Of a stretch of DNA of 64,000 nt, positions 7,270 through 21,498 are shown in pieces (position 1 is the stretch's first letter; every line of letters begins with the position of its first letter). A program made the position numbers and the translations under genes. The notes beneath the pieces are model-generated. The model was given only the letters and a program-made list of their open reading frames with translations. It had not been told where the DNA came from and did not search any database. The stretch is from Paenibacillus sp. GP183. Its GTDB lineage: Bacteria; Bacillota; Bacilli; Paenibacillales; NBRC-103111. Location of the stretch: the NCBI RefSeq assembly GCF_900104695.1, contig NZ_FNSW01000001.1, forward strand, positions 1,178,001-1,242,000. Reading direction: 5' to 3'.

Positions 7270-7320
7270 GAGCGCCTCCTTTGATGTTGTTGTGGACAAA
7301 CCCATCATACCGAGGCGCTC
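7270..7320 (-). promoter_or_regulatory. Hairpin burying the transposase ribosome site
   Basis: GAGCGCCTC at 7270-7278 and GAGGCGCTC at 7312-7320 are perfect 9-bp inverted repeats. On the transcript the 3' arm covers the GGAGG ribosome site of the transposase. Read-through transcripts from outside would fold and block translation, as known for some other IS elements. A short transcript starting inside the loop would not. Confidence 0.55.
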
Positions 7321-7361
7321 CTTTTTTAGCAAAGGCCATTTCTTAGCCCATACAGGAATGT

Positions 7362-7830: not shown

Positions 7831-8096
7831 AAAAGGACTTGAAATCGGATCATTGGTAATGGGTCCAGAAATAGGGGAATAAATTCATCCACACTGTTTA
7901 TGATTTGAAACATGGGTGGAAATTCATTTATTGATTTCCAAGCTGTACATGAAGCATCATCCAATAACATAGTATAAGGAACCTTTTGACCCTGCTTGAC
8001 TTGAGGCGAATCCTGAGGTTTAAATATTTGTTTATCACAACCTACTATAGCTATTAACACCATACAAAAAAGGATGAACCTGATCTTAAAATTCAT
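7791..8096 (-). CDS. Lipoprotein with fused or truncated C-terminus
   Basis: 101-residue frame beginning with a lipoprotein signal (FILFCMVLIAIVGC, cysteine 20 as lipidation site) and an Asn/Lys n-region. Residues 21 to about 72 are polar and globular-looking. The last 25-30 residues (LLKAAGFGQGDW) appear to be read from the adjacent isomerase remnant, so the original protein was probably longer and lost its C-terminus in a deletion near 7830. The ATG is preceded by AAGGGATG. Function not recognised. It may still be exported and anchored to the membrane. Confidence 0.5.
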   Translation of the reverse strand: MNFKIRFILFCMVLIAIVGCDKQIFKPQDSPQVKQGQKVPYTMLLDDASCTAWKSINEFPPMFQIINSVDEFIPLFLDPLPMIRFQVLFLLKAAGFGQGDW

Positions 8097-8201
8097 AATA
8101 TCATCCCTTATATTTATTGGTAATATTTTTATAATACTTCTTTAATAACGTTTATTTTTGAGTAATGTTGCATTACAATGATGTTTCTTAAAAGCAAAGA
8201 A

Positions 8202-9623
8202 CTATACAATCCGAAACTCCGTTTTTAGAATCCGGATGGTGTCACCTTCTTTGATGGGATAAGACTGATAGGGGATGAGCGGTTCGTCATTCAATAAGGT
8301 TCCGTTTTTGGAACCCAGATCCTTAACACCATAGCCTTCAAGGGCTTTAAAAATCTCTGCATGCAGCCTAGATACTCCTGCTTCATGTTCCACATAGCTG
8401 CATTCTGCCTCTCCTCTTCCGATCGTAAAGGAATTTCCTAACATCGGAATTTGTTGCTTGCTTCCTTCCCTGTTCACTTCAATCATCGCAGCTCTGGCTT
8501 TCAATGGTATTACGGCGACTGCCTGTTTGCTTCCCAAAAAAACGGTTGCATTACTTGGTGCACCTGACAATAGGGTGGTATGCTTATGTAAATTTTCATA
8601 GTAATCATGAATATTCACTTGTAATTTTGGTTCCGAAACTTGAGGTGAAATTGATTTATTGTTTTTCTTGTTGACGAGTTTATTCCATTTCGAAGCTCCA
8701 GACGGAACCCATATAAAACTAAAGAGGATCCATAAATCGATCAATAATAGGGACATTCCACAGGCAATATACAGCATGGCATCGTGTGGATGATCTAAAT
8801 ACCTTTTCCAAATGAAAGATAAGACCAAAAAAATTACGACCAAAATAAGCAATCTATTTCTTTGTGAAAGCAGAATCGGATTGTCATTGTCTTCGAATGT
8901 TTTTAATTCCGGTTCAGGGTGCTTATGGAATATAGGACTTGGCAGTGGAGATAAGAAAGGTCTATCATCTTTTTTCGAAGGTGTTTGTGGAATAACATTC
9001 GGGGTTTCAAGTTCATATTGAGGTAGCTTGTTCATTTGCGGCTTCCCCATCCATTCGAGAAGCTTTTGTTTAAAGGCGGACAGATTGAAATCTTCGTTAC
9101 AAGCTTTAAGCAGTTCGTCCAATCCTGCGCGTTCGTCCGGCACGACGATTTTGATAAGACGCTCAATGAGCATCCCTACTTGAGTATGTAAGGGGATTAC
9201 TCCGACTAACTGCTGAAACGGCAAATAGGTTAAATACACATCCGTGATCTCGCTGCCTATGAAAATAAAATTTTCCTTAAGCAAATATTGCGATTCATTC
9301 AGCATGTAATTTCCACTTTGCTCCAACGCGGAAAGGATACCAAACATCAACTTAATGAATTGAGCTTTAGTCAGTCTTTCCGCCTTCAATACTTGGGAAA
9401 GCATCCGTTTGGAATGCATATGATAGAGCAGGCTGATTTGAAAATCAATTTCCTGAACCTCCAGTGGAAGCAGCCTCGGTATTTTATTGGATTCCAGCAT
9501 ACGAAGCTGAACGCCGGATAGCTCCTGCGAATAGATCCCATCGCTGCGATGAAGCTTCATGACCAATCCGTGACTGTAAACAAAATCATATCGTAAACCA
9601 TAGATTTCCTGCATCGAATCCAT
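8202..9623 (-). CDS. DUF6382-type membrane protein with C-terminal FHA domain
   Basis: 473 residues. Residues 1-200 resemble the cytosolic DUF6382 domain seen in Firmicute FHA proteins. A Pro-rich linker follows, then two membrane helices (about 255-305, LLILVVIFLVLSFIW and IACGMSLLLIDLWILF). The last 95 residues form an FHA domain with GNSFTIGR, VSRLHAEI and DLGSKNGTLLND, the Gly/Arg/Ser/His/Asn-Gly pattern that binds phosphothreonine. It is the last gene of the Tad operon, and its likely partner is the Ser/Thr kinase at the head of the locus. I infer that it docks a phosphorylated pilus component at the membrane. Confidence 0.82.
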   Translation of the reverse strand: MDSMQEIYGLRYDFVYSHGLVMKLHRSDGIYSQELSGVQLRMLESNKIPRLLPLEVQEIDFQISLLYHMHSKRMLSQVLKAERLTKAQFIKLMFGILSALEQSGNYMLNESQYLLKENFIFIGSEITDVYLTYLPFQQLVGVIPLHTQVGMLIERLIKIVVPDERAGLDELLKACNEDFNLSAFKQKLLEWMGKPQMNKLPQYELETPNVIPQTPSKKDDRPFLSPLPSPIFHKHPEPELKTFEDNDNPILLSQRNRLLILVVIFLVLSFIWKRYLDHPHDAMLYIACGMSLLLIDLWILFSFIWVPSGASKWNKLVNKKNNKSISPQVSEPKLQVNIHDYYENLHKHTTLLSGAPSNATVFLGSKQAVAVIPLKARAAMIEVNREGSKQQIPMLGNSFTIGRGEAECSYVEHEAGVSRLHAEIFKALEGYGVKDLGSKNGTLLNDEPLIPYQSYPIKEGDTIRILKTEFRIV

Positions 9624-9710
9624 CTCTTCTCCTCCTGTCTAACCTTGCGAATAATACCAAGCCGTGAAGACACCGGGTAAAACAGCATACATAAAAGGGA
9701 ATTGTAAGAG

Positions 9711-10145
9711 CTATTGCTGCTTCATTTTTTTGAAAGTTAAATAATCCTTGAAAACAACAATCGAGAGCAGCCAGCCTGTCATTCTTTTTCCAACAGGTAT
9801 AAGTTTTTTACGAACTAAAAGCAGTATCAACCCAATCACACCTGCGTAGATCAAGGAATACATGATGCTCTGCCATACAAAGACTGTTCCCATCAAAGCG
9901 CCAAGAGCAGCAAAAAGCTTCACATCACCCGCTCCCAATGCACCAAATATGTAAAGGACCAGAAGTATAAAAAAGCCAATAGAAAGTCCTATTGCCGAAT
10001 CCAATAATCCATACCAGCCATCAAAAGCAATATGATATAGAAGTCCTGCCATTGCTGCACCCACGTTGAGAGTATTGGGAATCAGCGAGCTTCTAACATC
10101 AGAAATAAATGCGGTTAATATAAAAACGGCCAACAGTATAGTCAC
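9711..10145 (-). CDS. tadV: A24 prepilin peptidase, TadV/CpaA-like
   Basis: 144-residue membrane protease of the short, methylase-free type IV prepilin peptidase class. The two catalytic aspartates are visible in FISDVRSSLIPN and in the GxGD motif GAGDVKLFAALGALMG. About five or six membrane helices. Predicted to cleave the Flp1 pilin and TadE-like pseudopilins encoded upstream, after the Gly of their G-x(4)-E motif. The GTG start has GAGGAG 9 bases upstream. The order and short spacing (26 bp) place it in the same operon. Confidence 0.87.
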   Translation of the reverse strand: MTILLAVFILTAFISDVRSSLIPNTLNVGAAMAGLLYHIAFDGWYGLLDSAIGLSIGFFILLVLYIFGALGAGDVKLFAALGALMGTVFVWQSIMYSLIYAGVIGLILLLVRKKLIPVGKRMTGWLLSIVVFKDYLTFKKMKQQ

Positions 10146-10171
10146 TTGCCACTACTCCTCTTCAATCCAAG

Positions 10172-10837
10172 TTAAGCACCGAGCCATGCTCGCTCATAGG
10201 CTTGTTTTTTCAAAATCAATGTTCGATTTATGAAAGGCAGCCGTAATCTAAATGCTAATTGAGCTTCCACTCCTAAATATTTTTCTCCACTTGTAAGTAA
10301 GTCCGGAAATATGACAGAAGTAACCTTCAAATTATCACGTCGAATTAACGTGCTGTCTGAAAATGCAAATACAATTGGAGTAAATGCAGCATTTACTCGC
10401 GGCCTAAACTGATTCTCGATGAAGCTGTTATATTCCGATTGAAGCGTGCCTTCTCCTTGTTCGCGCAATTCTTTTTCCAGCTTTAATAAGTCCAATAGTT
10501 GATCAGGGATATAAGCCGAATAATTATCGATAAAGTCTTCGACACCGATCATTTTGTCTCTTGCTGATTGCACCGTATTGACAGCAGAATTAAACACGCT
10601 CGATGTCTGACTTTGATCGAATTTGAGCTTTGCTTCTTGAACTACCAGCTTCACAGGGTACAACTGCGTGGCAATCGATTTGGCGGTTTCCGTTACTGCC
10701 GTCTGCAAAGCCATCTCAGCTAATGAAATTTGAATGAACATAATAAGAGAAACGATAAAAGTCAAAAATAGAGGCAAGAGCAGCGCTGCTTCCAGTACGA
10801 TTCCGCCTTGTTCACTTTTGACAAGCTTACATTTCAT
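10172..10837 (-). CDS. TadE-like pseudopilin
   Basis: 221 residues with an N-terminal prepilin-like signal: basic MKCKLVKSEQ, then GGIVLEAALLLPLFLTFIVS, where the Gly and the Glu five residues later match the cleavage site used by Tad prepilin peptidases. The remainder is extracytoplasmic and mostly helical, ending in a beta-rich tail with a basic C-terminus. TadE-type pseudopilins are thought to prime or shape Flp fibres. A clear GGAGG precedes the ATG. Member of the Tad operon between the prepilin peptidase and the large coiled-coil protein. Confidence 0.78.
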   Translation of the reverse strand: MKCKLVKSEQGGIVLEAALLLPLFLTFIVSLIMFIQISLAEMALQTAVTETAKSIATQLYPVKLVVQEAKLKFDQSQTSSVFNSAVNTVQSARDKMIGVEDFIDNYSAYIPDQLLDLLKLEKELREQGEGTLQSEYNSFIENQFRPRVNAAFTPIVFAFSDSTLIRRDNLKVTSVIFPDLLTSGEKYLGVEAQLAFRLRLPFINRTLILKKQAYERAWLGA

Positions 10838-10855
10838 TTATCTAGTCCTCCGTTT

Positions 10856-13111
10856 TTAGTATGACAAAGCAGAAGTTCGTGTTATTTCACAGCGGTTCAT
10901 GTTTACCTTACAGCCAAGCAGATCGCTGCCGCTTATAAGCCTCATGATTCCTGGGATAAACCATAATCGAACCGTACTGGTTGCGTGACCCTGTACATAT
11001 GTCGTTTGATTCTGTAAGTCTTTGCCTGTATTAAGCTCGATCAATGCCTGCATACGAGCCATCAGCTTGGTGTCATTACTATGCAGCAGCAGGAAGATCC
11101 GTAAATAGTCCTTATACGTTAATGTTAATACTGAAGATGCGAGTTTGGAGGACAACTCCACTTGATTTCCCTTAACCAGTTCATTCATATCCATAAAAGC
11201 TTTTGCCGCTCCTTCTGCTGCTGCAGCTAATAGAACCAGAAGTGGCGAGCCTGCGTTTAAAAGTTCTTTTTTCGGATCAAGCAATGCCTCCAACGTACGA
11301 ATAGCCAATCTAAAAGAGAACATCTCCGCATAGGCAGAAGAAATATTAGCTTGGCAGGAAGAGAACCCATAAAGTAAATACTCGACTTCTTGTAAAGCTA
11401 ATTTGTGTGAACCGGGATTGATCCGTTCATTCGATATTTTGGGTTGACCATTGATGTCTTTTTCAAAGCCATAGGTTCGGTAATTGAATTTGGTTAGCGC
11501 AAACTCATTCAGGTACAGCTCATTTCTGCTTCCCTCGGCAATACTCGCAAAAGCTCCCAGCATATCCATGGCCTTTAAACTCACTTTGTCTGATTTATCC
11601 AGATCGTAGGAAACTCCGCTTCCTATAACAGCAACATGGTTATTAATAGCTCGATATTTTTGATAAAGACCTTCCTTAGTTGGAACCTCCGGATCTTGTA
11701 AAATGCTAAAGAAGCTTTGGTCATTGCTGCTGCATCCGCCCATTACCAGCTTCGCTTGATCCAAAACAGCCTGGATCTTGTTTTTTTGGGCTAGTTTATT
11801 AGCCGTTAATTGTTTCTGTTCACCCATGCGCTGTTCTTCTATTTTTGACTGCTTCACAAAAAATTCGTTTGCTGTATTTTCATAGGCGTCATTTGTGGCT
11901 TTGGCCCGATTAGTATTGGCCAGTGTAAATAAGTAAATGGAGGAAATCGTACCTTTATATCCATTAAATAAGGCAAGAACAGCCGCTACTGAAGAAGAGT
12001 AAGAGTGAAAATAATCATCGTTAAGCACCTTTACACTCTTGAATGCATCGTACAGCTTGTTTGATCCATTGCTACCGCCCATGATTCGTTCAAGCTCATT
12101 ACGCAAATTGTCGTTCGTATGCTTGGCCCTGATCAGCAAGGGTTCAATCTCACCTTGGTAAGAGGCGATGATCAAGCTTTCCGACGCAGCTTCCTGCTTA
12201 ATTTGGATTAACAATCCCGCATATTTTATTAAAGCTTTGAGAATCTTATCCAGCTCATTTTGCACAACTGCCAAATCATTCAATTGACTTTGAAGTACTT
12301 GTTTGGATTGGATGATAGAAGCAATGCTTTCCATACTTGGTTTTCCAGCTTGAACAAGCGACGATAAGGTGAGGTCCAATGCTTGCATAGCATCCTGAAT
12401 CGATTTGATCTGATCACGAATATGGATAAGTGAATTTTGGATTTCATCTACATTATGTATACCTATTATCTCAGCTAACGAAGCAAGCTCGACTATTTCC
12501 CCTTCATATCTCGAGTGTAATTCTATCGCTTTATCGTGCAGCGCCTTGGCATGAATCCATGCTTGGTCCAGGTCATCGTTTCGTTTATCCAACAGCTTCT
12601 CCAACGCTTCAGCTTCTTTGGAGAACTGTGAGGCGGATTGAAATGGAGCTGAAGCACCGCTTTTTTTGAACTTATCCGTAATCTCCAATGCAAATTCAAT
12701 GGGAGCTTTAAGCTTCATGTCCTCTAAAATTTGCCTTTCGAAAATAGGATGGCTGGCCAGCGAATATATAGGTGTGAGTCGAGACTCGCTTGGCACAGGA
12801 ACCGTATCTACAAAATGAAAAGCACCTGAGGCAGTGCTGCCAGACAAATTCTTGCCAAAGACGTTGCTGAAAATGTTTAGCGCTTCTTCAGTTGACAGAC
12901 CTAAACCATATAAACCGTTTCCTTGAAGCTCTGTATCAAATGCCGATAGTGATGACCTTACACCAGCTTTGACAGCCGCTTCTGTTTCTTTTTCAGCAAG
13001 CTTTATTCTTGCAAAATCAATCAGCACCGCTTGAAACAAAAATATGGGAACGATGATCAGAATGAGATATACCGAGACGGCTCCATTCTCCCTATGCCAT
13101 ATGAATTTCAA
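10856..13111 (-). CDS. Large TadG/pseudopilin-like protein with long coiled coils
   Basis: 751 residues. The N-terminus (RENGAVSVYLILIIVPIFLFQAVLIDFARI) is a TadE/TadG-like membrane anchor, and the exported part carries extended heptad-rich helices at about 165-350 and 410-460 (for example SQLNDLAVVQNELDKILKAL). The C-terminal 300 residues are a mixed domain with several cysteines (GGCSS, FSSCQ, LLGCKVN, NRCEI). It is far larger than normal TadE/TadF (about 150-250 residues) and unlike Proteobacterial TadG, as I see no von Willebrand motif. I infer a tip, base or wall-spanning part of the pilus. TTG start behind AGGGGAGAGGGA. Confidence 0.72.
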   Translation of the reverse strand: MKFIWHRENGAVSVYLILIIVPIFLFQAVLIDFARIKLAEKETEAAVKAGVRSSLSAFDTELQGNGLYGLGLSTEEALNIFSNVFGKNLSGSTASGAFHFVDTVPVPSESRLTPIYSLASHPIFERQILEDMKLKAPIEFALEITDKFKKSGASAPFQSASQFSKEAEALEKLLDKRNDDLDQAWIHAKALHDKAIELHSRYEGEIVELASLAEIIGIHNVDEIQNSLIHIRDQIKSIQDAMQALDLTLSSLVQAGKPSMESIASIIQSKQVLQSQLNDLAVVQNELDKILKALIKYAGLLIQIKQEAASESLIIASYQGEIEPLLIRAKHTNDNLRNELERIMGGSNGSNKLYDAFKSVKVLNDDYFHSYSSSVAAVLALFNGYKGTISSIYLFTLANTNRAKATNDAYENTANEFFVKQSKIEEQRMGEQKQLTANKLAQKNKIQAVLDQAKLVMGGCSSNDQSFFSILQDPEVPTKEGLYQKYRAINNHVAVIGSGVSYDLDKSDKVSLKAMDMLGAFASIAEGSRNELYLNEFALTKFNYRTYGFEKDINGQPKISNERINPGSHKLALQEVEYLLYGFSSCQANISSAYAEMFSFRLAIRTLEALLDPKKELLNAGSPLLVLLAAAAEGAAKAFMDMNELVKGNQVELSSKLASSVLTLTYKDYLRIFLLLHSNDTKLMARMQALIELNTGKDLQNQTTYVQGHATSTVRLWFIPGIMRLISGSDLLGCKVNMNRCEITRTSALSY

Positions 13112-13125
13112 TCCCTCTCCCCTTT

Positions 13126-14115
13126 CTAATTGTGCAACACGACTGCAATTCCCTTATTCTCCAACTCCCTTCGCAGCTTATCACTTGGACCAACAACGCC
13201 GGCGGCATTTTTTTTAAAAAAATGCCACACAATGCCTTTCACTTGCGACCCTTGTTTCAAAAGCTCAAAATCCTTGGTCATTTGCTCTGACCTTAGTTGA
13301 TTTTCTGTGAACGTATAAAAAGCAATATGAGCCACTCCATGTGCATCCAGTGCGTCTATCGTACGGCTTTTTCCCGTTGGAGTAATCAGCACTTTCTCTT
13401 GGCCATTCACAAGTGATTTCAAATAGGAGGCAGCTTGCCTTTCGGAAGTAATGGTAACTGTGTCTCCTCCAAAGCTTCCTGATGGTTCAACGAGAGCTTC
13501 TTTTGCCTTCCGTGGTGTAATTCTACCTTTTATGGCACCTATATAAGTTCTTGTGATATCCGTAAGACGAATAAGTTCAACGGGTTCAACAACTCGTGAG
13601 GAGGCTTGAGCTTTGATGCTATCTGCCCCATTCCAATGAAACACGCTTTTTGATAAGTAAAAAGGCTTCTGTAAAGCGATAGTTACTTTGCGATCAATCA
13701 AATGGTTCGTATAGGTTGCCGTTCCTGATAAAAAAGAGGGGATAAGACTGGATGCTTTTGCAAGCTTGCTTTCCGTTAGATTCATTATGTTTGATGGAGC
13801 TGATGGAATTTGAACTGTAGCCGGTGCATTTGGAACAATAAACCCGAAAAGGTCGGCTGCACTGTCATTCGTAAACCTCCAATATAAACCATCTGTCTCA
13901 TTGGGATTGAAGTTGCCTGTCTTAGAATCCATATGACTGTTATTCCAGTTATAAGCTGCACGTTCAGCTATGATTCGAGCTATCTGCTGTACATAAACCT
14001 TTTGGTACATATACAACCCGAGAAATAGAAGGCAGATCGTGCCCAGCATCACCATTGGCATCACCAGGGAGGCTTCAATAGTGAAGCTTCCATATTCATT
14101 TTTTATCAGCTTTTT
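13126..14115 (-). CDS. TadE-like pseudopilin with extended extracellular domain
   Basis: 329 residues from ATG 14115. The N-terminus KNEYGSFTIEASLVMPMVML is a near-ideal TadE prepilin signal (Gly, then Glu five residues later, then a long hydrophobic helix). The rest is an exported mixed alpha/beta domain, with a C-terminal block (KVLITPTGKSRTIDAL, VLHN) that could be a small Rossmann-like fold. No strong ribosome site precedes this ATG. It lies 7 bases past the Flp1 stop, so translation is probably coupled. A GTG at 14154 would add 13 residues and overlap the Flp1 gene. Confidence 0.75.
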   Translation of the reverse strand, partial: KKLIKNEYGSFTIEASLVMPMVMLGTICLLFLGLYMYQKVYVQQIARIIAERAAYNWNNSHMDSKTGNFNPNETDGLYWRFTNDSAADLFGFIVPNAPATVQIPSAPSNIMNLTESKLAKASSLIPSFLSGTATYTNHLIDRKVTIALQKPFYLSKSVFHWNGADSIKAQASSRVVEPVELIRLTDITRTYIGAIKGRITPRKAKEALVEPSGSFGGDTVTITSERQAASYLKSLVNGQEKVLITPTGKSRTIDALDAHGVAHIAFYTFTENQLRSEQMTKDFELLKQGSQVKGIVWHFFKKNAAGVVGPSDKLRRELENKGIAVVLHN

Positions 14116-14122
14116 CATCAAT

Positions 14123-14344
14123 TTATGGAGTGCAGCTGCCGCTCGATGGATCACAAGGTGTAACTGTACTGCCGTTTAAATCTGTATTGGCAGTACCAAT
14201 TAGTTGATTAAACCAGTGAACGATCCATTTGCGAAAAATAATCGCAATCGCGACCAATACAGCGACAATCAATAATATTTCCAATGTGCCAAGGCCATCT
14301 TCATCCTGCCAAAGTTTTTTTAACATGGTCCATACGTTATTCAT
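14123..14344 (-). CDS. flp1: Flp1-type major pilin
   Basis: 73 residues. A short leader (MNNVWTMLKKLWQDEDG) ends at the likely cleavage site, followed by LGTLEILLIVAVLVAIAIIF, a hydrophobic helix with the conserved Glu at mature position 5, then a short polar tail with two cysteines near the C-terminus (PCDPSSGSC). This is the size and layout of Flp1-family pilins of Gram-positive Tad systems. It is expected to be the structural subunit, processed by the local A24 peptidase. AGAAGGAG lies upstream. The Cys pair could form an intramolecular disulphide. Confidence 0.85.
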   Translation of the reverse strand: MNNVWTMLKKLWQDEDGLGTLEILLIVAVLVAIAIIFRKWIVHWFNQLIGTANTDLNGSTVTPCDPSSGSCTP

Positions 14345-14357
14345 ATCATCTCTCCTT

Positions 14358-15230
14358 CTATTGATTCATCATAAGTAATGCCGGTGCGGCCACTATGAGC
14401 ATAACCACTGCAAAAATGAGCACCATCGGAAAAACTAACTTGGAAGAAGCTTCCTCACCCAGCGTTTTCGAAACCGTTTTGCGCCGCTGCCAAAGCTCCT
14501 GGGACAAGCCATGCAAGGCAAGGACAAAATCATTCCCTCCTCTTTTGTAATTTAGCATCAATGAAGAAGTGAATAGAGATACCTCGTGCATGGCGCAGCG
14601 TTTGCTGAAATCCTCCATCACTTTGGGAAAGGAAATATTCATCTCAAGCTCTCGGACAGCCATGTCCATTTCCTTAAATAAAGGAGATTCAGCCTCATTC
14701 CTGCGTTTTACCTGCAAGCACCGTATCCATGCTCTTTGTACGGTTTCTCCGGCATTCACAAGAAGAACTATAGTACTCAATACCTCGGGAAGCTCCATAA
14801 TGATCTGCTGCTGTTTTTTGCGTATTTGAGCGTCCAATTCTTTGAGCATGAGCAAAGGGGTGACCATCGCACAGAAAAGTCCCAACCCTATATAAACGAC
14901 ATCCCCGCCAGCTAGTACAGCTATAAGGTTAAAGAATAGCAAGCATAAAGAACCTGCCGATACTTGTTCCGCATAAAATAACTTGGAACGATTAATACTG
15001 TTGGACCGGCCATGAAGCAATAATAATTTATGATGAATGCGCAATGTGAAATCAGGCAATCTCTCCATGAGTTTGGTTTGATCTAGAAACAACAAGCCTG
15101 CCGGATGAAGGAAGGTGAGCTTGAAGGAAAAAACATTTTCATTCATAAAGCTGCTGTATTTCTTTCGGCCGAGGATTAAATAAGCAGATAAGAGAACAAA
15201 TTCGATAGATAATGTAATGGAGCTAAACAT
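14358..15230 (-). CDS. tadC: TadC-like platform protein (type II secretion F domain)
   Basis: 290 residues. A membrane segment at each end and one pair in the middle flank a cytosolic T2SSF helical bundle (LPEVLSTIVLLVNAGETVQRAW to FSKRCAMHEVSLF). The C-terminal helix ends LVAAPALLMMNQ-like sequence. Together with TadB it should form the inner-membrane platform for the TadA motor. ATG 15230 is preferred because AAGGTG lies 5 bases before it; a GTG 6 bases earlier overlaps the TadB stop. The two genes overlap or abut, implying coupled translation. Confidence 0.82.
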   Translation of the reverse strand: MFSSITLSIEFVLLSAYLILGRKKYSSFMNENVFSFKLTFLHPAGLLFLDQTKLMERLPDFTLRIHHKLLLLHGRSNSINRSKLFYAEQVSAGSLCLLFFNLIAVLAGGDVVYIGLGLFCAMVTPLLMLKELDAQIRKKQQQIIMELPEVLSTIVLLVNAGETVQRAWIRCLQVKRRNEAESPLFKEMDMAVRELEMNISFPKVMEDFSKRCAMHEVSLFTSSLMLNYKRGGNDFVLALHGLSQELWQRRKTVSKTLGEEASSKLVFPMVLIFAVVMLIVAAPALLMMNQ

Positions 15231-15232
15231 GA

Positions 15233-16093
15233 TCACACCTTGATATTCATAATTTTATGGGTTAACAAGCCGCAAGCTGCTAGCAGCAGTAAACATAAAC
15301 TCATAATGATCAATCCAATTCCTTTATAAAGCGGCTCCATATACTCGGGTGAGGTGAAACTCAGCAAGGCTACAATAAGAATGGGTGCGATCAAGAGAAC
15401 TCTGGATTCGAATTTCTTTTGCGCAATCATCACCGTGATGTCCTGCTTGATTTCCAGCTTTTCCCCGATAATACCTGAAGTTCGCTTCATCACTTCGATC
15501 AAGTTACCTCCAGTTCGTTTACATGTGACGAACACATCAGTGAAGCTGGCGGCATCCTCCAAATGAGCTCTTTGCGAAAAATCCATCAATGCGGCTTCAA
15601 TCGGTTCCCCATTTTCCATCCTTCTGCATATAATGCTGAATTCATGAACAATAAAGCAAGATGGATCCGGATAAAGCACCCGCAGATCCTCCAACGCTTC
15701 CCGAAACGCGGTTTCAACGGACTTGCCTGCGGATAAAGATGATGATAAACAGCTAAGAGCTTGTTTAAATTGAACATTCAATTTGTTTTTGCGTAATCGG
15801 ATCATGTGCCCCTGGTAGTATCTTGGGTATAGAATTGCCAGCAAGGAAAGCAGCAGGGCCATGATCATGCTTTTGTAAAAAACATAGCCAATCATGGAGA
15901 GCGGAATCGCTAAGATAAAAATCGACAAAACTTTTTCTTTGCTGGATAAAAGATATTCATCATAGCGGATGAGTGCTTGCGTCGATTTGTCGACAGAGTG
16001 TACGGGATGGGAAGCCTTCTTTTTCCGATCCCACCAAATAAATAATACCCAGCTAATCGCGCCAAGTATAAAAGTCGGTGCGGCTAAGTGCAA
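15233..16093 (-). CDS. tadB: TadB-like platform protein (type II secretion F domain)
   Basis: 286 residues with an N-terminal membrane helix, a basic linker, a second hydrophobic pair (MIGYVFYKSMIMALLLSLLAIL), the T2SSF bundle (QALSCLSSSLSAGKSVETAF, CKRTGGNLIEVMKRTSGII) and C-terminal helices. The KRTGGN motif is typical of TadB. The TTG start is set by GGAGGG 7 bases upstream; the start overlaps the end of tadA by 10 bases. Platform subunit of the pilus motor. Confidence 0.85.
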   Translation of the reverse strand: MHLAAPTFILGAISWVLFIWWDRKKKASHPVHSVDKSTQALIRYDEYLLSSKEKVLSIFILAIPLSMIGYVFYKSMIMALLLSLLAILYPRYYQGHMIRLRKNKLNVQFKQALSCLSSSLSAGKSVETAFREALEDLRVLYPDPSCFIVHEFSIICRRMENGEPIEAALMDFSQRAHLEDAASFTDVFVTCKRTGGNLIEVMKRTSGIIGEKLEIKQDITVMIAQKKFESRVLLIAPILIVALLSFTSPEYMEPLYKGIGLIIMSLCLLLLAACGLLTHKIMNIKV

Positions 16094-17364
16094 ATAGCAT
16101 CCCTCCTTGTTTGGTTAAACCATTCTGGCATGCGCTTACCCGCCATCTGCAGCTTATGGTCATTCACTAATGGATTACCTGTGTATTCCAGTTGACCGAT
16201 AACCTTGCGATCCTCGGTTTCTCCCATTTCCTTAAAGAAGAATAACGGGTTTAGCATGATTTCGCCATCGATTATTCCTATCATCTCGTGAATCTCGGTT
16301 ACCTTCCGGGTACTGTCGCGAATTCGGCTCAAATGAATCATAATATCGATTGCCGAGCTGATCTGCTTGCGGATAACCTCCACTGGAAGCGAGGCACCGC
16401 TTAAGACCATCGTTTCCAAACGGCTTAGCATATCCGCTGCTGAATTGGCATGACCCGTGGATAAGCTTCCATCATGACCGGTATTCATCGCTTGCAGCAT
16501 ATCCAAAGCCTCAGCTCCGCGAACCTCGCCCACAATGATCCGATTGGGTCTCATCCTCAGCGAAGCACGAATCAAATCTCGAATAGGAATCTCCCCTCTT
16601 CCTTCCGTATTCGCATTCCGTGTCTCCAAACTAACAAGATTAGGAATATTGCGAATTTGCTGCTCAGCTGAATCTTCAATAGTAATAATGCGTTCCTCTG
16701 CAGGAATGGAAGCCGCTAACGCACCCAAAAATGTCGTCTTCCCCGATCCTGTGCCTCCACCGATAAAAATGTTGTAGCCGGATTCAACCAGGCTTTGCAG
16801 CAGCTCGGCAGCCTCATGGGTCAAGCTCCCCTTGCGAATTAAATCGTCCATCTGCAGCGGCTTCCCCGGGAACTTACGGATGGTCATACTGGGACCGCTG
16901 AGTGAGGCAGGAGGCAATACAACATGAACCCTCGAACCGTCAGGAAGCCTTGCATCCACTATGGGCGTTCCTTGATTAACGATTCGGTTTACTTTTGCCA
17001 CGATGGTTTGAATGATGTCCTCCAGCTTCTCTTCACTCTCAAACTGATCAGGATGCCGAGTTATAATCCCCTGTCTTTCTATAAAAATATCCTTGTACCC
17101 ATTGACCATAATTTCCGTTATCGCAGGATCTTCCATCAGCGGCTGCAACACATCCAAGCCGCGATAAGAATGAAACAAACGCAATACCCAATCCTTAATA
17201 TCCCTGGAAGTCCAATCATGCTCAGATGAAACAGAGAAAAGAACTTCTTCAATCAATTCCTTTAGCTGCTCATCCGAAGTATAGCTCGATAAATCCAATT
17301 GTTCTTTGATTCTTTGCTTCAACACAGCCATTAGCTCCCGATCCCGTTCCTGATTTTGCTCCAT
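16084..17364 (-). CDS. tadA: TadA/CpaF secretion ATPase
   Basis: 426-residue cytosolic hexameric motor of the Tad pilus. N-terminal helical domain (1-100), then DPAITEIMVNGYKDIFIER typical of CpaF, Walker A GGGTGSGKTTFLGALA at about 202-217, Asp box ITIEDSAEQQI, Walker B-type IIVGEVRGAEALDMLQAMNTGHDG and the His box STGHANSA. The length is standard. The start ATG overlaps the CpaE-like stop (TGATG), so translation is coupled. ATP hydrolysis should drive Flp1 assembly through TadB/TadC. I see no missing catalytic residue. Confidence 0.94.
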   Translation of the reverse strand: MEQNQERDRELMAVLKQRIKEQLDLSSYTSDEQLKELIEEVLFSVSSEHDWTSRDIKDWVLRLFHSYRGLDVLQPLMEDPAITEIMVNGYKDIFIERQGIITRHPDQFESEEKLEDIIQTIVAKVNRIVNQGTPIVDARLPDGSRVHVVLPPASLSGPSMTIRKFPGKPLQMDDLIRKGSLTHEAAELLQSLVESGYNIFIGGGTGSGKTTFLGALAASIPAEERIITIEDSAEQQIRNIPNLVSLETRNANTEGRGEIPIRDLIRASLRMRPNRIIVGEVRGAEALDMLQAMNTGHDGSLSTGHANSAADMLSRLETMVLSGASLPVEVIRKQISSAIDIMIHLSRIRDSTRKVTEIHEMIGIIDGEIMLNPLFFFKEMGETEDRKVIGQLEYTGNPLVNDHKLQMAGKRMPEWFNQTRRDAICT

Positions 17365-18452
17365 CAGACGAGTGCTCCTTTGAGTTGGTTAGCTTCGAAA
17401 GCTTGCATCAACTGGTCAGGAAAAATGCCGCCTGTAAAAAAAGGCTCCAGTGAATGGACAGTCTTCCATTCTGGCATATAGGGCAGATAACCGCTCAAAA
17501 CAATGTCGGCAGACCCAAAATCGTTTTGTATGGTTCCCGTGTATTTATTGAGAACAAAATGTATGCCGCTCTGAACTCCAAACGATTTCATAACAGCCTT
17601 TGTTTTATGCAGACAATTCAGTTCATCCAAAACGAGCCACAGCGTAATATCGCTTAACTTCAAAGCCTGACTGATTCTTACATGCAGCGAAGCCTCCAAG
17701 TCAATGATGATAAAATCATAGCTGTCCATTGCAACTAAAGCCTCAATCAGATGACGTGTTTCTTCTGCGCTCATTTCTTGAGCCTCTCTTAAGAGATGGC
17801 AAGGGGATAGAAAATCAATGCCCAGCCGAAGATCTTGTTTAATAAACATTCCAAGCTTGCTATTTAGCTGCTCAGGCATACTTTTCACAAAATAGAGAAT
17901 CCGTGAAAAGTGCTGGGGATCTGCCCCCTGTAACAAATGAAATGCGAAGCTGGGCGCCTCCAGACTGAGAAAAAGCACTTTTTTGCCGCGAAAAGCAAGT
18001 TCTCTGGCTAAATGAACAGCTGACAAGGTCTTGCCGCAATTACCAATTGCTGAATAAAGCGAAACTATTTTAGTGGTATTCTTGGATGGAGTAGAGTGAA
18101 GCCTGTGTTTATCCTGATAAAAGTCAAGGATTCGCGACAGCAGTTGCTGTAAAGATTGAAACCGATATACAGCTGGAACATCCGGATCGATTAATTCATC
18201 CGCCAGTAGAATGTTGCTTATAGACAGCATACAAAGACGTTCTTTGTACTTCTCACATTCAGGAAGAAAAGATTCTGAAGCAAGTAAAATGCAGAAATCA
18301 CTAATTGTTTCAAGCAGTCTGTCTACATATTCCGTTTTTGTAAATAGCTTGGGCTGTATCCTTTCCTCGAACTTAGACGACTTGATAAACGCAGCCAGCC
18401 GCTCCGCATAAAAATGGTCCTCGTCGAGCAGCAGCAGTTGAATTTTTGCCAT
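17364..18452 (-). CDS. CpaE/TadZ-like ParA-fold protein with receiver-like N-terminus
   Basis: 362 residues. The first 120 residues form a receiver-like domain (KIQLLLLDEDHFYAERLAAF) that keeps the acidic cluster DED but lacks a clear phosphorylation pocket. Residues about 128-345 are a MinD/ParA-like domain with P-loop SAIGNCGKTLSAVHLA, so here the Lys and Thr of Walker A are kept, and a Walker B-like DFIIIDLEAS. Family members position Tad machinery at the pole. ATG 18452 follows AAGGAGG 5 bases away; a longer frame to 18515 has no such site and overlaps the micro-peptide gene. Confidence 0.8.
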   Translation of the reverse strand: MAKIQLLLLDEDHFYAERLAAFIKSSKFEERIQPKLFTKTEYVDRLLETISDFCILLASESFLPECEKYKERLCMLSISNILLADELIDPDVPAVYRFQSLQQLLSRILDFYQDKHRLHSTPSKNTTKIVSLYSAIGNCGKTLSAVHLARELAFRGKKVLFLSLEAPSFAFHLLQGADPQHFSRILYFVKSMPEQLNSKLGMFIKQDLRLGIDFLSPCHLLREAQEMSAEETRHLIEALVAMDSYDFIIIDLEASLHVRISQALKLSDITLWLVLDELNCLHKTKAVMKSFGVQSGIHFVLNKYTGTIQNDFGSADIVLSGYLPYMPEWKTVHSLEPFFTGGIFPDQLMQAFEANQLKGALV

Positions 18453-18507
18453 AATAACCTCCTTAGAGTTTTGCTTTAGCAAAACTAACTTCGTAAGCAT
18501 AGTCTTT

Positions 18508-18600
18508 CTACGCAAATGTGAGATATAGTCCGCTAGCTAATAAAAATGCACCCATCACAGCCGTTACAGCAGCAATTCGGATTATTAGAGTTCTGTTCAT
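18508..18600 (-). CDS. 30-residue single-helix membrane peptide, first gene of the Tad operon
   Basis: The frame MNRTLIIRIAAVTAVMGAFL continues LASGLYLTFA and stops. It has a basic N-terminus and one membrane helix with small residues (A, G, S). A strong GGGGAGG ribosome site lies 11 bases upstream, and the leader promoter and terminator point at it. It ends 55 bases before the CpaE-like start. Function unknown; candidates are a leader peptide for operon control, or a small membrane partner of the platform. Confidence comes from the ribosome site and context rather than from homology. Confidence 0.55.
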   Translation of the reverse strand: MNRTLIIRIAAVTAVMGAFLLASGLYLTFA

Positions 18601-18624
18601 GCATCCATCAACCTCCCCGGGACA

Positions 18625-18673
18625 CAAAAAAAGCACTCGCCGACTCAGAGAATCTCTGAAATCAGCGGTGCTT
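18625..18673 (-). terminator. Leader terminator (attenuator) before the Tad operon
   Basis: Minus-strand AAGCACCGC pairs with GCG-A-GTGCTT (one bulged A), enclosing an inner CAGAG/CTCTG hairpin, and is followed by seven Ts. It lies only about 20 bases before the ribosome site of the first Tad gene and downstream of a strong promoter. An alternative hairpin AGCGG-AAGCA-CCGCT (18664-18678) would use the same 5' arm and prevent it. Confidence 0.75.
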
Positions 18674-18677
18674 CCGC

Positions 18678-18697
18678 TTATGTATTTTTATGTATTT
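18678..18697 (-). repeat. Tandem 10-bp repeat in the Tad leader
   Basis: Two exact, adjacent copies of AAATACATAA (minus strand) lie just after the predicted transcription start, before the attenuator hairpin. This spacing suits an RNA- or DNA-binding regulator. Confidence 0.6.
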
Positions 18698-18711
18698 GTT
18701 CAATTGATGAA

Positions 18712-18739
18712 ATTATATCATAACGATCACATTATTCAA
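18712..18739 (-). promoter_or_regulatory. SigA-type promoter of the Tad operon
   Basis: Minus-strand TTGAAT (18734-18739) and a perfect TATAAT (18712-18717) are separated by 16 bases. The -35 element overlaps the stop codon of the kinase gene. Transcription should start near 18705. Confidence 0.75.
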
Positions 18740-20390
18740 CCTTTTTTTGTAAATTAAATCTGGAAAATAAATTCTTAGGTCTTGCTTCGCTACGGATAAG
18801 TTTCTCTTCTGGAATCAGCTCTCGAAGCAAAGGGTGTAATGCAGCTCTCAGCTTATCCAAAACCGCAGGTTGATCCTGAATGAATTCTCCTTTCCAAAGG
18901 CAGCGCACAACGTTTTCAAACGGAAGCTCCGGCAAGGTGCAAATAACAGGACCTGGAAGAGACTCCTGCCATTCCTTACGGATGCCTGAAGGTATTTCTT
19001 TGTTGGCGATGTAACGCACCGATTTGCCTCTTGCTTGATAATCGATCAGCTGCTTAAGGCGTGAGCGCGAGCTGAGCCTATTGATTTTAGCCGGTGAGGC
19101 ATCGAGCACGATGATGATTTCATCTGCACTTTGGCAGAGTTCTTGAACCGAGGGCTCCCCCCAGCCTGTTGAAATATCCCAGATGACGATAGGCTTGGTC
19201 ATGGAATAGAGCAGCTTGAAGGTATCCGCTGGAGTCCAGGTGCCCGAGAAGCCATCGAGATGAATGGGAATCCAGGTGGTTAAGCCATTCTCCCAAGTCG
19301 GCTGATGCAATAAGCTTCCTGCACTAGCCGCAGCATCTGAAGCAAACGTATAAGACGGCGGAGCTTTGGCATCTCCAAAAAGGAGCATGTACAAGTCTGG
19401 CTCATTCGTGGGCTGTTCAACCAAGGCTTGAGGAACTCCGCAGGCATGAAGCACACGGGCGATGGTAACGGCCGTGAAAGTAGATCCAACGCCTGCATAC
19501 AAACCGCCAACGACAATTAATTTGCGTGGGATAGAGGCAGGCGTGTTTGGTAATCCCAAGGCAGACGATCGAGCCGCTGGCTTATTGGGGTTAGACGCAA
19601 GCGGCGCCAACCGGTGCTGCACTTCCAGGGCCGACTGGCAGCGGTCCTGCGGATTGTCGTGCAGCAGCATCTGCACGGTGTCGGTCAGGGACTGCGGCAG
19701 GTCAGGACGCAGCTTGGCCAGCGGGATTTGAGTGATGTACATATACTGGCCTCTGCTTAGCAAGTAATACATCATCGCTCCAAGCGTGTAGAGGTCCGAA
19801 CGGGCATCCGTTTGCGCTGAGGCCAGCTGTTCAGGGGCAGCAAACCCGATGGTGCCGAGCTGCAGCGTATCCGCATTCTTCCCCAGCGTGAAATGTCGGG
19901 CTACGCCAAAATCAATCAGCCTTACACGATCATGCTCATTGATCATTACATTCGAAGGCTTGAGATCGCGATAAATGATCGCTTTTGGACGAAACGAGTG
20001 CAGATAATGAAAAAGCTCGCAAAGCTGCAGCGAATAGTGGACGACTCGATCAACTGAAAGCTCACGGCTGCTGCGTTCAAATAGATCATGCAAGGTAGGT
20101 CCCTGAATATAATCCATAACCAAATAAGCAAAACCGCCCACATCCGACGCAAAATAATCCACCAGCTGCGGCAGCTGAGGATGCTGGAGTTGAGCCAACA
20201 TTTCAGCTTCTTCGAGAAAGATCTGCACATCAGTACCTACATGCAGGCACTCCTTTACAGCCCATCTCTTTCCTTTGAGCTTCAAATCCTCAGCCAAAAA
20301 AACACGGCCCATCCCTCCTTGACCCAGCAAGGAAACAATCCGATATCTTCCTCCTAACGTATCTCCTTCATCAATATGTTTAAACTCCAC
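18732..20390 (-). CDS. Ser/Thr protein kinase fused to a TadZ-like P-loop domain
   Basis: 552 residues. Residues 12-265 form a Hanks-type kinase: Gly loop GQGGMG (23-28), Lys46 in AVKE, catalytic YRDLKPSN (Asp142), DFG (160-162) and APE (185-187). After a Pro-rich linker, residues 290-500 form a MinD/ParA-like domain whose P-loop GGLYAGVGSTFT (295-306) lacks the Walker A lysine, as in TadZ proteins; it also has IVIWDIS and IIIVLDASPAK. I see no membrane segment or PASTA repeats. GTG start; the nearest ribosome site (AGGGGG) lies inside an upstream terminator stem. Probably phosphorylates Tad proteins that are read by the FHA protein. Confidence 0.85.
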   Translation of the reverse strand: MEFKHIDEGDTLGGRYRIVSLLGQGGMGRVFLAEDLKLKGKRWAVKECLHVGTDVQIFLEEAEMLAQLQHPQLPQLVDYFASDVGGFAYLVMDYIQGPTLHDLFERSSRELSVDRVVHYSLQLCELFHYLHSFRPKAIIYRDLKPSNVMINEHDRVRLIDFGVARHFTLGKNADTLQLGTIGFAAPEQLASAQTDARSDLYTLGAMMYYLLSRGQYMYITQIPLAKLRPDLPQSLTDTVQMLLHDNPQDRCQSALEVQHRLAPLASNPNKPAARSSALGLPNTPASIPRKLIVVGGLYAGVGSTFTAVTIARVLHACGVPQALVEQPTNEPDLYMLLFGDAKAPPSYTFASDAAASAGSLLHQPTWENGLTTWIPIHLDGFSGTWTPADTFKLLYSMTKPIVIWDISTGWGEPSVQELCQSADEIIIVLDASPAKINRLSSRSRLKQLIDYQARGKSVRYIANKEIPSGIRKEWQESLPGPVICTLPELPFENVVRCLWKGEFIQDQPAVLDKLRAALHPLLRELIPEEKLIRSEARPKNLFSRFNLQKKVE

Positions 20391-20446
20391 AATAAAAAAA
20401 TCGCCCCCTACAGGTAAGAATTACCTAAAGTATAAGGGAACGATTT
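20391..20446 (-). terminator. Rho-independent terminator overlapping the kinase leader
   Basis: Outer stem AAATCG/CGATTT plus CCC/GGG, inner stem AGGTAA/TTACCT, then TTTTTTTATT on the minus strand. It ends the methyltransferase transcript. Its 3' arm contains the AGGGGG ribosome site of the kinase gene, and its 5' arm contains a TATACT that could be a -10 element for the kinase. Confidence 0.7.
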
Positions 20447-20463
20447 ATTAAAATCCATATATT

Positions 20464-21498
20464 TCATAAAATGGTTGACTTAATCAGATACAAAGTCAGC
20501 TCCTCGCGATTATGAAACAACTGCTTGGCTTGCACCAAGTGCAGCTGCGATTCAAAAGCTTGCAGCAGTTCTTTAACCGTTTGAAAAGGCTTCTTGTGCA
20601 TCAATTTCACCGTGATAATGGCAGTTCCGCCCTGCTTCAGAGCATAGAGCAGATCGGCTACAAGCCGGCCCATTTGCCTTGGGCTCCAGCTCATATCGCA
20701 AACAAGCAGATCGAATTCCTCATCTCGCAGCTTTACATCGCCGGCATTCTTTTTATGAAAAGTCAGCTTGGGATTACTGATCAGACTGGGATGCATGCTC
20801 GCTGGATCAATCGCGGTTACCTTCAATCCTTTTTCCAATAAAAAAGAAGTCCAACCTCCCGGCGCAGCCCCGATATCGAGAGCATTCTTATAGGAGCCGA
20901 AATCGAGGCCAAAACGCTGCTCCGCTTCCAATAGCTTGAATTTCGCCCGCGATATTTGGTCCTCTTCTTTATGAAAACGAATAGCCCCGCCGGACCAATC
21001 CGATAGATTATCCTCCGGGCGGGAAGTCCCGATATACACCTTCTCGGCTGTCACATATACAGAAACGATGCGGTCGGCATCTTTGACCACCGGTTCCGCA
21101 CCAAAGTGCGATGCGAATAACTGATCCATAGCCGATTTTACGGCAATAGGCGCATATGGCGCCCCAGATCCCTCTTCTTTGCGTACTTGCACTGCTATCT
21201 TTTCCCCGGCCTCAAAGGAAGCATGTTCCTTCAGCCATTGAACCAGCTCGCTCAAATCCGCTTCAGAACGTGAACTCTCCAAAACATGATCAACCGGCTG
21301 CATATGCCTCAGAAACATAGGCTCTTGCTGTCTGATCAAACGAGCAGCTTCTTCGACCGAAACCGGGAGTTCAAAAATGAAAACCTCGGTCGGTACCAAA
21401 AGCGTAAACCGCGCATTCGGAAATAATCGCTTAATCTCTTCTTGCGCATATTGGGCAAAGCCATGATTGGATGTTCCTATAAATCGGGAAATGTTCAT
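20464..21498 (-). CDS. FtsJ/RlmM-type SAM-dependent RNA methyltransferase
   Basis: 344 residues. N-terminal THUMP-like region (1-170), then a Rossmann methyltransferase with motif I ALDIGAAPGGWTSFLL, acidic motif VTAIDPASM, LLVCDMSWSP and ITVKLM. Lys in RAKFKLLEAE, Asp in CDMS, Lys in VKLM and the late Glu in REELTLYLI could form the K-D-K-E tetrad of 2'-O-ribose methyltransferases. This resembles the RlmM group acting on 23S rRNA, though the exact target is unknown. The ATG overlaps the stop of the ABC ATPase gene (ATGA), so the two are translationally coupled. Confidence 0.8.
   Translation of the reverse strand: MNISRFIGTSNHGFAQYAQEEIKRLFPNARFTLLVPTEVFIFELPVSVEEAARLIRQQEPMFLRHMQPVDHVLESSRSEADLSELVQWLKEHASFEAGEKIAVQVRKEEGSGAPYAPIAVKSAMDQLFASHFGAEPVVKDADRIVSVYVTAEKVYIGTSRPEDNLSDWSGGAIRFHKEEDQISRAKFKLLEAEQRFGLDFGSYKNALDIGAAPGGWTSFLLEKGLKVTAIDPASMHPSLISNPKLTFHKKNAGDVKLRDEEFDLLVCDMSWSPRQMGRLVADLLYALKQGGTAIITVKLMHKKPFQTVKELLQAFESQLHLVQAKQLFHNREELTLYLIKSTIL

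Follow-up and report, generated by a model that had tools for sequence, protein, structure and literature searches.

A conserved leader hairpin, a TadZ-tailed kinase and a membrane FHA protein at the Tad pilus locus of Paenibacillus sp. GP183

Introduction

Tad pili are widespread, yet how monoderm bacteria turn them on, and to what use spore formers put them, is to our knowledge little described. We analysed the tad locus of Paenibacillus sp. GP183 (order Paenibacillales), which lies in a 64,000-nucleotide stretch (the window, G000:C1:1178001-1242000) of the 5.83 Mb genome; coordinates are window positions unless a contig is named, and G, C, L and f numbers denote genomes, contigs, loci and families, respectively. 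An initial annotation of this stretch had described a Tad pilus locus bracketed by a Hanks kinase with a TadZ-like tail and a DUF6382-FHA membrane protein, and had proposed that phosphothreonine signalling between the bracketing genes controls the pilus. All the genes that it named were found where it had placed them, by Pfam and, for TadZ, by profile match; it had missed a DUF5702 gene inside the run (10856-13111) and a putative attenuator (18626-18681). This leader is what is new here: a conserved hairpin/terminator that is shared by tad operons and, in some relatives, a second Tad-like module (module 2), recA and comEA, and that has no match in Rfam.

Results

Gene content of the locus

The genes are transcribed from the minus strand in the order kinase, TadZ, TadA, TadB, TadC, Flp1, TadE2, DUF5702, TadE1, A24 peptidase, DUF6382-FHA. 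The Tad/Flp run itself (9711-18515, minus strand) holds the core parts of a monoderm Tad machine, as follows.

8202..9623, minus: DUF6382, two transmembrane helices, linker and FHA protein, 473 amino acids (Pfam DUF6382 1.3e-23, FHA 2.1e-15)
8232..8429, minus: FHA domain, residues 399-464 (Pfam 2.1e-15; pocket conservation, 58 rows)
8535..8579, minus: motifs T349xxL352 and T360VxL363, candidate phospho-acceptors for the FHA domain (column conservation, 58 rows)
9711..10145, minus: A24 prepilin peptidase (Pfam Peptidase_A24 6.4e-17)
10172..10837, minus: TadE-like minor pilin 1 (Pfam TadE 7.4e-4, below the curated cut-off; position conserved)
10856..13111, minus: DUF5702 protein, 751 amino acids, in a TadG-like position (Pfam 2.6e-8; position conserved)
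13126..14154, minus: TadE-like minor pilin 2 (Pfam TadE 2.4e-4, below the curated cut-off)
14123..14344, minus: Flp1 major pilin (Pfam Flp1_like 3.6e-16)
14358..15236, minus: TadC platform protein (Pfam T2SSF 5.6e-7)
15233..16093, minus: TadB platform protein (Pfam T2SSF 3e-10)
16084..17364, minus: TadA/CpaF motor ATPase (Pfam T2SSE 1.2e-55; NCBIfam TadA family 3.5e-89, below that family's cut-off)
17364..18515, minus: TadZ/CpaE-like ATPase (Pfam AAA_31 1e-9; 40-row profile against PDB 3fkq 4.7e-49)
18626..18681, minus: putative attenuator, hairpin GCGG-AAGCA-CCGC overlapping an intrinsic terminator (pattern, folding, model R1)
18712..18739, minus: promoter-like site upstream of the attenuator (10/12 match, extended -10)
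18732..20390, minus: Hanks Ser/Thr kinase (residues 16-253) with a TadZ-like pseudo-ATPase tail (about 285-540) (Pfam Pkinase 6.6e-39; tail against TadZ 98%)

The receiver domain of TadZ matched at 0.0021, below the Pfam cut-off. The true start of the A24 peptidase may lie upstream of the frame called here, the protein having about 170 amino acids or more in most relatives.

Conservation within and beyond the order

DUF6382 (PF19909) was found in 58 of the 59 genomes of the order, GP183 included. Around its matches, 58 stretches from 57 other genomes were collected, giving 59 loci together with the window. The same block recurs in the same order across these relatives: of the 59 loci, the window among them, 54 have Flp1 and 53 have TadA, and the misses fall at contig ends (L051, L052, L094), at insertions (L040, L060) and in one differently arranged locus (L073). 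The DUF6382 gene nearly always follows the tad block directly, and the gap between the A24 and FHA genes is at most 160 nt in all 56 of the 59 loci where it could be measured. The gene order described by the initial annotation is therefore not peculiar to this genome and recurs through the whole order, which argues that the arrangement is not due to chance.

In a phylum-wide sample of 398 genomes DUF6382 was present in 35, seven of which belong to this order. From 27 of the 28 matching genomes outside it we obtained 28 DUF6382 loci (two from G276; G227, with a weak, broken match, was left out), and tad genes accompany DUF6382 in most of them, the exceptions being L150, L159 and L179.

A conserved hairpin overlapping a terminator precedes tadZ

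Between the kinase gene and tadZ, the sequence GCGG-AAGCA-CCGC is followed by a strong terminator. A sequence pattern built on this element occurred upstream of TadZ in 42 of 48 loci, kinase-less ones included (shuffled mean 0.05), and upstream of 4 of 29 SAF genes, while it was absent from the control positions (FHA 0/59, A24 0/56, FtsJ 0/21, cREC 0/22). A structural definition, which allowed any 4-bp stem and required an A[AG]GNA loop (chosen after alignment A9 had been seen) and a T run, recovered it before 39 of 48 TadZ genes (shuffled 0.1), 11 of 20 module-2 SAF genes (0.05) and 5 of 7 module-2 kinases (0.05), with 0/59 (shuffled 0.4), 0/21 and 0/14 at controls. The stems vary in step (GCGG/CCGC, ACGG/CCGT, GCAG/CTGC, ATGG/CCAT, GCGA/TCGC and TGCG/CGCA), and the loop stays AAGNA, or AGGCA in two cases.

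Alignment A9 holds 67 of 74 candidates; we removed L044 (a different hairpin), L068 (same as L056), one copy of L061, L296 (same as L205) and L302, L303 and L319 (ambiguous target). Since its rows were picked by sequence pattern and T run, the invariant core, including three of the four stem pairs, and the T run reflect that selection, and the T run is no separate evidence for an attenuator. The first stem pair was GC in 53, AU in 8, GU in 4 and unpaired in 1 of the 66 distinct rows. Each of the 67 sequences folds into a terminator that takes up the CCG of the hairpin, with a median energy of -29.3 kcal/mol and a median cost of 12 when the hairpin is forced. Terminator and hairpin thus share bases and are mutually exclusive, with termination as the predicted default. 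Upstream of 47 of 53 tad-locus elements (shuffled 32.1, maximum 41) a -10-like hexamer stands no more than 70 nt away, in 31 of these 47 at 21-30 nt; counted over the full region, promoter-like sites do not exceed the shuffled number (23 versus 26.1).

Model R1 scored the window element at 53.5 bits (E 7.3e-9 in its own genome), this sequence being itself part of the model. Rfam (4227 families) gave no match at E up to 1 in window positions 7000-22000; across eight leader loci it gave a single sub-threshold hit, to an sRNA, that lies off the element (L309, 370-541). A known riboswitch was rejected on these results. The element precedes tad operons as a conserved structure, and its proposed action is antitermination.

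Between the element and tadZ there is also a Cys-rich open reading frame of 23 codons (18533-18604, minus strand), with no counterpart in the intergenic regions of 26 relatives; a Cys-containing frame in the same region of L086 is unlike it.

The leader also precedes recA, comEA and module 2

A pattern search of 30 genomes found the element in 23, the reversed pattern giving one match in all. With R1 at E up to 0.1, 57 of 59 genomes gave matches, 181 in total; among the matches listed, the best one lies at the tad locus in most genomes. Stricter filters were applied, a threshold of this kind should still let through a few matches by chance, and the model itself contains many of the tad leaders. 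R1 found nothing in the 14 loci tested from outside the order, nor in L214, L218 and L222. A recA match is present in 58 genomes, and 15 of these have the element upstream of it on the same strand, at a distance of 121-396 nt from the domain match; chance overlap would amount to about 0.01-0.02 in the whole set, an estimate that takes roughly 3 sites per genome and a target of 500 nt. It also precedes comEA, in 5 of 30 genomes and with 484-682 nt between element and domain match; three of these cases were read as DNA, and for two of the three the product was confirmed as a helix-hairpin-helix protein. Module 2 and, in some relatives, the kinase itself also carry it upstream.

The R1 sites of GP183 are the tad leader, a module 2 (C1:4469876) and a third outside the window (C1:1765402-1765457). 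The genome has five T2SSF matches (E up to 0.001), every one of them within one of three Tad-like loci, and hence showed no ComGB. Together, recA, comEA and the pilus machines suggest a link to DNA uptake, and it is because the leader also stands before recA, comEA, the kinase and module 2 in some relatives that we tentatively place the pilus in a DNA-uptake programme.

As a separate observation, GP183 has three further Tad-like loci (L189, L193, L194): CpaB- and TadZ-like genes at 3.16 Mb, a module 2 on C2, a contig of 399 kb that is perhaps a plasmid, and another module 2 at 4.47 Mb.

Threonine motifs ahead of the FHA domain

The window protein is the only PF00498 match of its genome. Its transmembrane helices were placed by hydropathy at residues 258-276 and 286-304. 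Over 58 rows the FHA pocket is conserved (G402 0.97, R403 0.97, S418 0.98, H421 0.95, N440 0.97), and within an otherwise variable linker two T-x-x-L motifs about 40-50 residues ahead of the domain stand out (T349 0.90, L352 0.83, T360 0.97, V361 0.74, L363 0.91). A T-x-x-L pattern preceded by D, E or N occurs in 38 of 58 FHA proteins (shuffled mean 8.7, maximum 17). Among the 56 proteins with a recognised FHA domain, 35 have this motif within 70 residues ahead of it and 49 have at least two T-x-x-[LIVM] there. Outside the order, 13 of 15 FHA-bearing proteins (not L175 and L179) carry T-x-x-[LIVM] in the last 75 residues ahead of the domain, and in 9 of the 15 the Thr follows a D or E by one or two positions. 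Most of the nine FHA-less DUF6382 proteins examined end at or shortly past the last transmembrane helix; L176, also without an FHA match, is longer and carries T-x-x-[LIVM]-type motifs. The first motif is worn in family f10 (L081, L087, L090, L093) and kept in L039, L040, L044 and L062, all of them loci with the kinase away or not found, so the motif does not track the kinase cleanly.

None of the 11 other locus families scanned had the D/E/N-preceded motif above its shuffled range, and a phosphosite on a Tad subunit was set aside on this ground, one motif type having been tried. In GarA and OdhI, a Thr motif ahead of the FHA domain acts as the switch when it is phosphorylated, and since the motifs found here lie before the FHA domain in the same way, we place the switch inside the FHA protein; by this analogy a GarA/OdhI-like switch would be likelier than a phosphosite on a pilus subunit. 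The best solved-structure match of the domain is Mycobacterium TB39.8, which we take to be FhaA. The protein itself falls outside the OdhI family (NCBIfam 27.4 bits against a cut-off of 200). A YukC/EssB-like pseudokinase identity for DUF6382 found no support, as there was no PDB match up to E 5 and profile comparison with one YukC protein gave 0.2%; comparison with the kinase gave 0.7% (E 0.085), aligned in plausible order.

The kinase, its tail and module 2

The catalytic Lys, [HYF]RD, Asn and DFG are kept in all 37 full-length kinase rows, which include L073, where the kinase stands beside the FHA gene and not TadZ (alignments A1 and A2 hold the other 36). The TadZ-like tail claimed by the initial annotation is real: profile against profile, it matched TadZ with 98% probability (E 2.4e-13), and it also matched a site-determining (MinD-type) structure (2.6e-5). 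The P-loop lysine is absent from the tail in 37 of 37 rows and the alignment to TadZ begins at the ATPase domain, leaving no receiver-like N-terminal domain; we therefore liken the tail to TadZ and do not class it as TadZ. Kinase gene and tadZ share a strand in all 36 measured pairs; the kinase gene is the upstream one, and the gap between the two runs from -8 to 2020 nt (median 170). AlphaFold2 models (3 and 4 sequences) were poor, with predicted local distance difference test scores of 48 for the FHA protein and 63 for the kinase.

Kinases away from tadZ were traced by a tail-profile search of 23 genomes and in fetched stretches. Over the 59 genomes, the kinase was placed at the tad locus in 39 (including GP183, G032, where it is in pieces, and G015 and G016, at contig ends by coordinates), in module 2 in 7, beside the FHA gene in one (G037; L073, L099), alone or as a weak match in 6, and not found in 6. 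The six genomes with the kinase alone or as a weak match comprise G008, with a free-standing kinase that has a TadZ-like tail (L311), G003 and G026, where the tail match is weak and the leader element stands about 1 kb upstream of it, and G024, G051 and G054, with a weak tail match only. An earlier idea, that the kinase had been lost from kinase-less tad loci, was revised accordingly, as it was placed elsewhere in several of these genomes.

Module 2 consists of the kinase, an SAF/CpaB-like protein, TadZ2, TadA2, TadB2 and TadC2, and is headed by the kinase in G007, G012, G022, G025, G028, G034 and G035. In L182, Pfam recognised SAF (1.2e-7) and T2SSE (1.4e-10), and TadZ2, TadB2 and TadC2, which had no Pfam match, were named by place, size and custom profiles; the TadA2 alignment (A3) holds 10 of 12 rows, L099 and L074 being left out. 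Two contig ends of G015, L186 (kinase-TadZ-TadA-TadB-TadC-Flp1-TadE-DUF5702) and L101 (A24-FHA-PP2C-SAF-TadZ2-TadA2-TadB2-TadC2), fit one cluster, unjoined, and in G216, outside the order, the whole tad and module 2 run lies on one contig (L160). Among the matches listed (80 loci), the kinase tail stands with module 2 in Paenibacillus silviterrae, and further arrangements are cREC-FtsJ-kinase-SAF2-TadA2 in Paenibacillus popilliae, DUF5702-A24-TadE-FHA-PP2C-kinase-SAF2 in Caldalkalibacillus mannanilyticus and DUF5702-TadE-A24-TadZ-FHA-PP2C-kinase in Lachnoanaerobaculum gingivalis.

A PP2C-like phosphatase gene, recognised by motif pattern or small profile and in L101 confirmed by Pfam, adjoins the FHA gene in L043, L051/L101, L058, L061, L064, L070, L153, L160, L214, L218 and L222. 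Six such cases were seen inside the order, five with the kinase in module 2 and one in the tad cluster joined to module 2 (G015). In L222 (uncultured Lachnospira), the FHA domain sits on a 505-amino-acid protein with a protease-like N-terminal part (by eye), followed by PP2C and the kinase. A defence system was considered and rejected: among the matches listed (25 of 34 kinase rows), PADLOC kinase matches cover the kinase domain only, TadZ had one weak match and the FHA protein none.

Outside the order, a kinase occurred in the fetched stretch of 10 of 15 loci with an FHA domain versus 0 of 13 without (p 2.5e-4), and of 8 of 13 versus 0 of 13 when L150 and L179 were removed (p 0.0016). For these counts L177 and L178, from the same order, were dropped, contig ends shorten L155, L159, L162, L170 and L173, some FHA-less stretches are short, and kinship is handled by the family count only.

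Discussion

The locus shares TadZ, TadA, TadB, TadC, an Flp pilin, candidate TadE-like proteins and an A24 peptidase in one run with the Tad/Flp (type IVc) pilus, and differs from it by a constant last gene for DUF6382, two transmembrane helices and FHA, by the TadZ-tailed kinase and by the attenuator leader. The initial annotation knew of no phospho-controlled form. As far as the accessible text of the sources goes, FHA domains in Tad systems and DUF6382-FHA proteins in type VII secretion have already been published, so the idea is not wholly new. The Kil system of Myxococcus xanthus is a Tad-like apparatus with FHA proteins for which a signalling cascade was suggested (PMC8460266); unlike the present locus, it is a diderm killing machine with FHA fused to the ATPase KilF, and the word 'kinase' was not found in the main text as accessible. 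In class III CpaF the FHA domain is likewise tied to the Tad motor, but fused to the ATPase, and mostly in betaproteobacteria (PMC12019362, in part). Similar in composition are also type VII secretion variants e, f and j, whose components TsxJ, TsxD, TsxF and TsfV include a DUF6382-FHA protein (two transmembrane helices in TsfJ) and a PPM phosphatase, with a kinase in e and j and a TadZ-like protein in f, and for which phospho-control was suggested (Garrett 2024, PMC11217815, in the sections available). There, the partner is an EssC/WXG100 machine, and the Tad loci named beside T7SSg/h have no DUF6382-FHA in them in those sections (PMC11217815). No EssC or WXG100 gene was found among 18 Pfam-scanned neighbours (5975-23504).

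GarA, OdhI and FhaA of Actinobacteria resemble the window protein in their T-x-x-hydrophobic motif directly before the FHA domain, and differ as soluble proteins without DUF6382 or transmembrane helices. Antitermination hairpins of the boxB type have a short stem and a five-base loop with a variable fourth base, and are placed before terminators. The window element shares the short stem, such a loop and the downstream terminator, but its loop starts with A, not G, and no cognate protein is known. In what was read of the PMC literature on Tad pili, FHA/kinase, DUF6382, competence and leader RNAs, we found no description of this locus or element; one further paper, PMC13011404, touches on the subject in its reference list only.

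We propose, tentatively and at somewhat less than even probability, a phosphothreonine-gated Tad pilus whose expression is gated by transcription attenuation and which is used in DNA uptake. The core machine consists of the monoderm Tad parts seen in the sequence. The kinase would dock on it through its ATPase-dead tail, pairing with TadZ, and phosphorylate the T-x-x-L motifs in the linker of the FHA protein. Binding of the FHA domain to these motifs, within one protein (in cis) or between adjacent copies (in trans), may then switch or cluster a membrane hub that is the constant partner of the prepilin peptidase and minor pilins; in some relatives the adjacent PP2C phosphatase would reset the circuit. 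The leader terminator is predicted to stop transcription from tadZ onward by default, and a trans factor that holds the AAGNA-loop hairpin would let it through. The pilus could be part of a competence programme; a parallel is the Flp pilus of Micrococcus luteus, in which two separate tad clusters together form a competence pilus, with ComEA present, as knockouts demonstrated (PMC4322843). That system belongs to another phylum, its uptake function is knockout-shown, and no kinase, FHA domain or attenuator is mentioned in the part of the paper available (PMC4322843). More doubtful is the fuller scheme in which Paenibacillus-group bacteria have their own type of competence system, which would combine the Tad pilus and the second Tad-like motor module, a new antitermination hairpin shared with recA and comEA, and gating after assembly by a kinase riding on a dead TadZ and a membrane FHA hub.

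Of the initial proposal, the pairing of the bracketing genes by phosphothreonine gains from the constancy of the FHA gene as tad neighbour, the key residues kept in kinase and FHA domain, and the kinase link seen with the FHA form only. The FHA gene stays with tad; the kinase stands in module 2 in seven genomes, is seemingly free-standing in a few and was not found in 6 of 59, and its link to this tad locus is looser than had been held. An ordinary adhesion pilus is an alternative of some, if limited, probability: its FHA scaffold would read phosphate placed by a general kinase such as PrkC, and the fusion kinase would mainly serve module 2 and be a chance-inherited neighbour here. The kinase-headed modules of seven relatives fit this, as do FHA residues that persist without the kinase-tail fusion, the four Hanks-kinase matches of GP183, and the promoter-like site and attenuator between the kinase and the tad operon. 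The homology of the tail to TadZ does not, nor does the position of the kinase gene in the 36 measured pairs, always on the strand of tadZ and upstream of it, nor do four f8 genomes with the kinase upstream of tadZ and no TadA2-profile match above 200 bits. We regard it as rather unlikely that the attenuator answers DNA damage, the recombination state or general stress, making the pilus a stress-induced surface structure; recA is the commonest identified non-pilus target and alone does not specify competence, but comEA is a dedicated DNA-uptake gene, and recA is induced in competence in Bacillus subtilis. Less probable still is that the leader is a plain terminator of the upstream gene or an inverted-repeat DNA operator and not an RNA attenuator. 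It does lie 3' of the kinase gene, and GCGG-N5-CCGC is an inverted repeat; yet the -10-like hexamer, mostly 21-30 nt upstream at the tad locus, would put the element inside the tad transcript, the element recurs before recA, comEA and module 2, and its stem changes are compensatory around a constant loop.

Several observations weigh against a pilus gated in the way that we propose. The tail profile found no kinase-tail fusion in G004, G041, G044, G045, G057 and G058, of which G004, G044, G057 and G058 keep the FHA pocket residues, and in several other genomes the kinase lies away from this tad locus. Counted by family in tad loci only, a kinase accompanies FHA in 4 of 6 versus 0 of 5 (p 0.06), with f97 on both sides. 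The sequence pattern precedes only 4 of 37 tad-locus or FHA-linked kinases, the window kinase not among them, the structural element 7 of 37 at the tad locus (shuffled 0.2; four family-type and three untypical stems), and outside the order the pattern was found before 0 of 15 TadZ genes in 14 loci. The -10-like hexamer is not in excess at module 2 (9/13, shuffled 8.3) or in the com group (5/7; 2.8, maximum 6). In GP183, neither recA (C1:583595) nor the comEA match (C1:64032) has the element among the matches listed, and two of the three sites, C1:1765402 aside, have an assigned target. PF00482 also missed TadB2 and TadC2 of L193, which makes the absence of ComGB soft. Finally, recA ranked with the transcripts of highest abundance in a Paenibacillus data set, from a strain that may or may not carry the leader, and in the accessible part of that study, which compared transcriptome leaders with Rfam, the element is not mentioned (PMC5670726).

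If the proposal is true, the order offers a Tad machine that brings its own Ser/Thr phospho-circuit, together with an RNA element by which co-acting genes can be recognised; if the link to recA and comEA holds, DNA uptake in a large group of soil bacteria and the protein that reads the hairpin become testable questions.

Additional observations

On the 5' side of the kinase lie genes for an FtsJ-like methyltransferase, an ABC ATPase, a cREC protein and an AP-endonuclease-like protein, and on the 3' side of the FHA gene an IS110-type transposase (5975-7339, minus strand). The latter adjoins a short xylose-isomerase-like fragment (7362-7667) and may have interrupted the gene to which this fragment belonged.

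In L044/L103/L112 (G008), L090 (G054), L060 (G024) and L040 (G004), tad genes are interrupted by insertions that are phage-like or carry a recombinase, which is reminiscent of prophages residing in competence genes. The tadA gene is split by about 45 kb in G008, with a serine-recombinase-like gene alongside (by eye), and by about 52 kb in G054. G024 has an insertion after TadE2, with about 160 kb to TadA and a confirmed recombinase, and in G004 the A24 gene is split, the remaining tad genes not being found in the stretches examined. In L068 (G032), kinase, TadZ, TadA, TadC, TadE2, DUF5702 and FHA are each in at least two pieces, pointing to a decaying locus or a noisy assembly.

L150 (G449) and L179 (G276) have DUF6382-FHA genes and kinases with no tad genes in the stretch; L150 also encodes a 1546-amino-acid FHA-domain protein and resembles type VII variants described in the available sections of PMC11217815. 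Near a second, kinase-less tad locus (L074), L191 (G038:C21) is a cluster with a 298-amino-acid kinase-like protein and TadE-like, DUF5702-like and A24-like genes.

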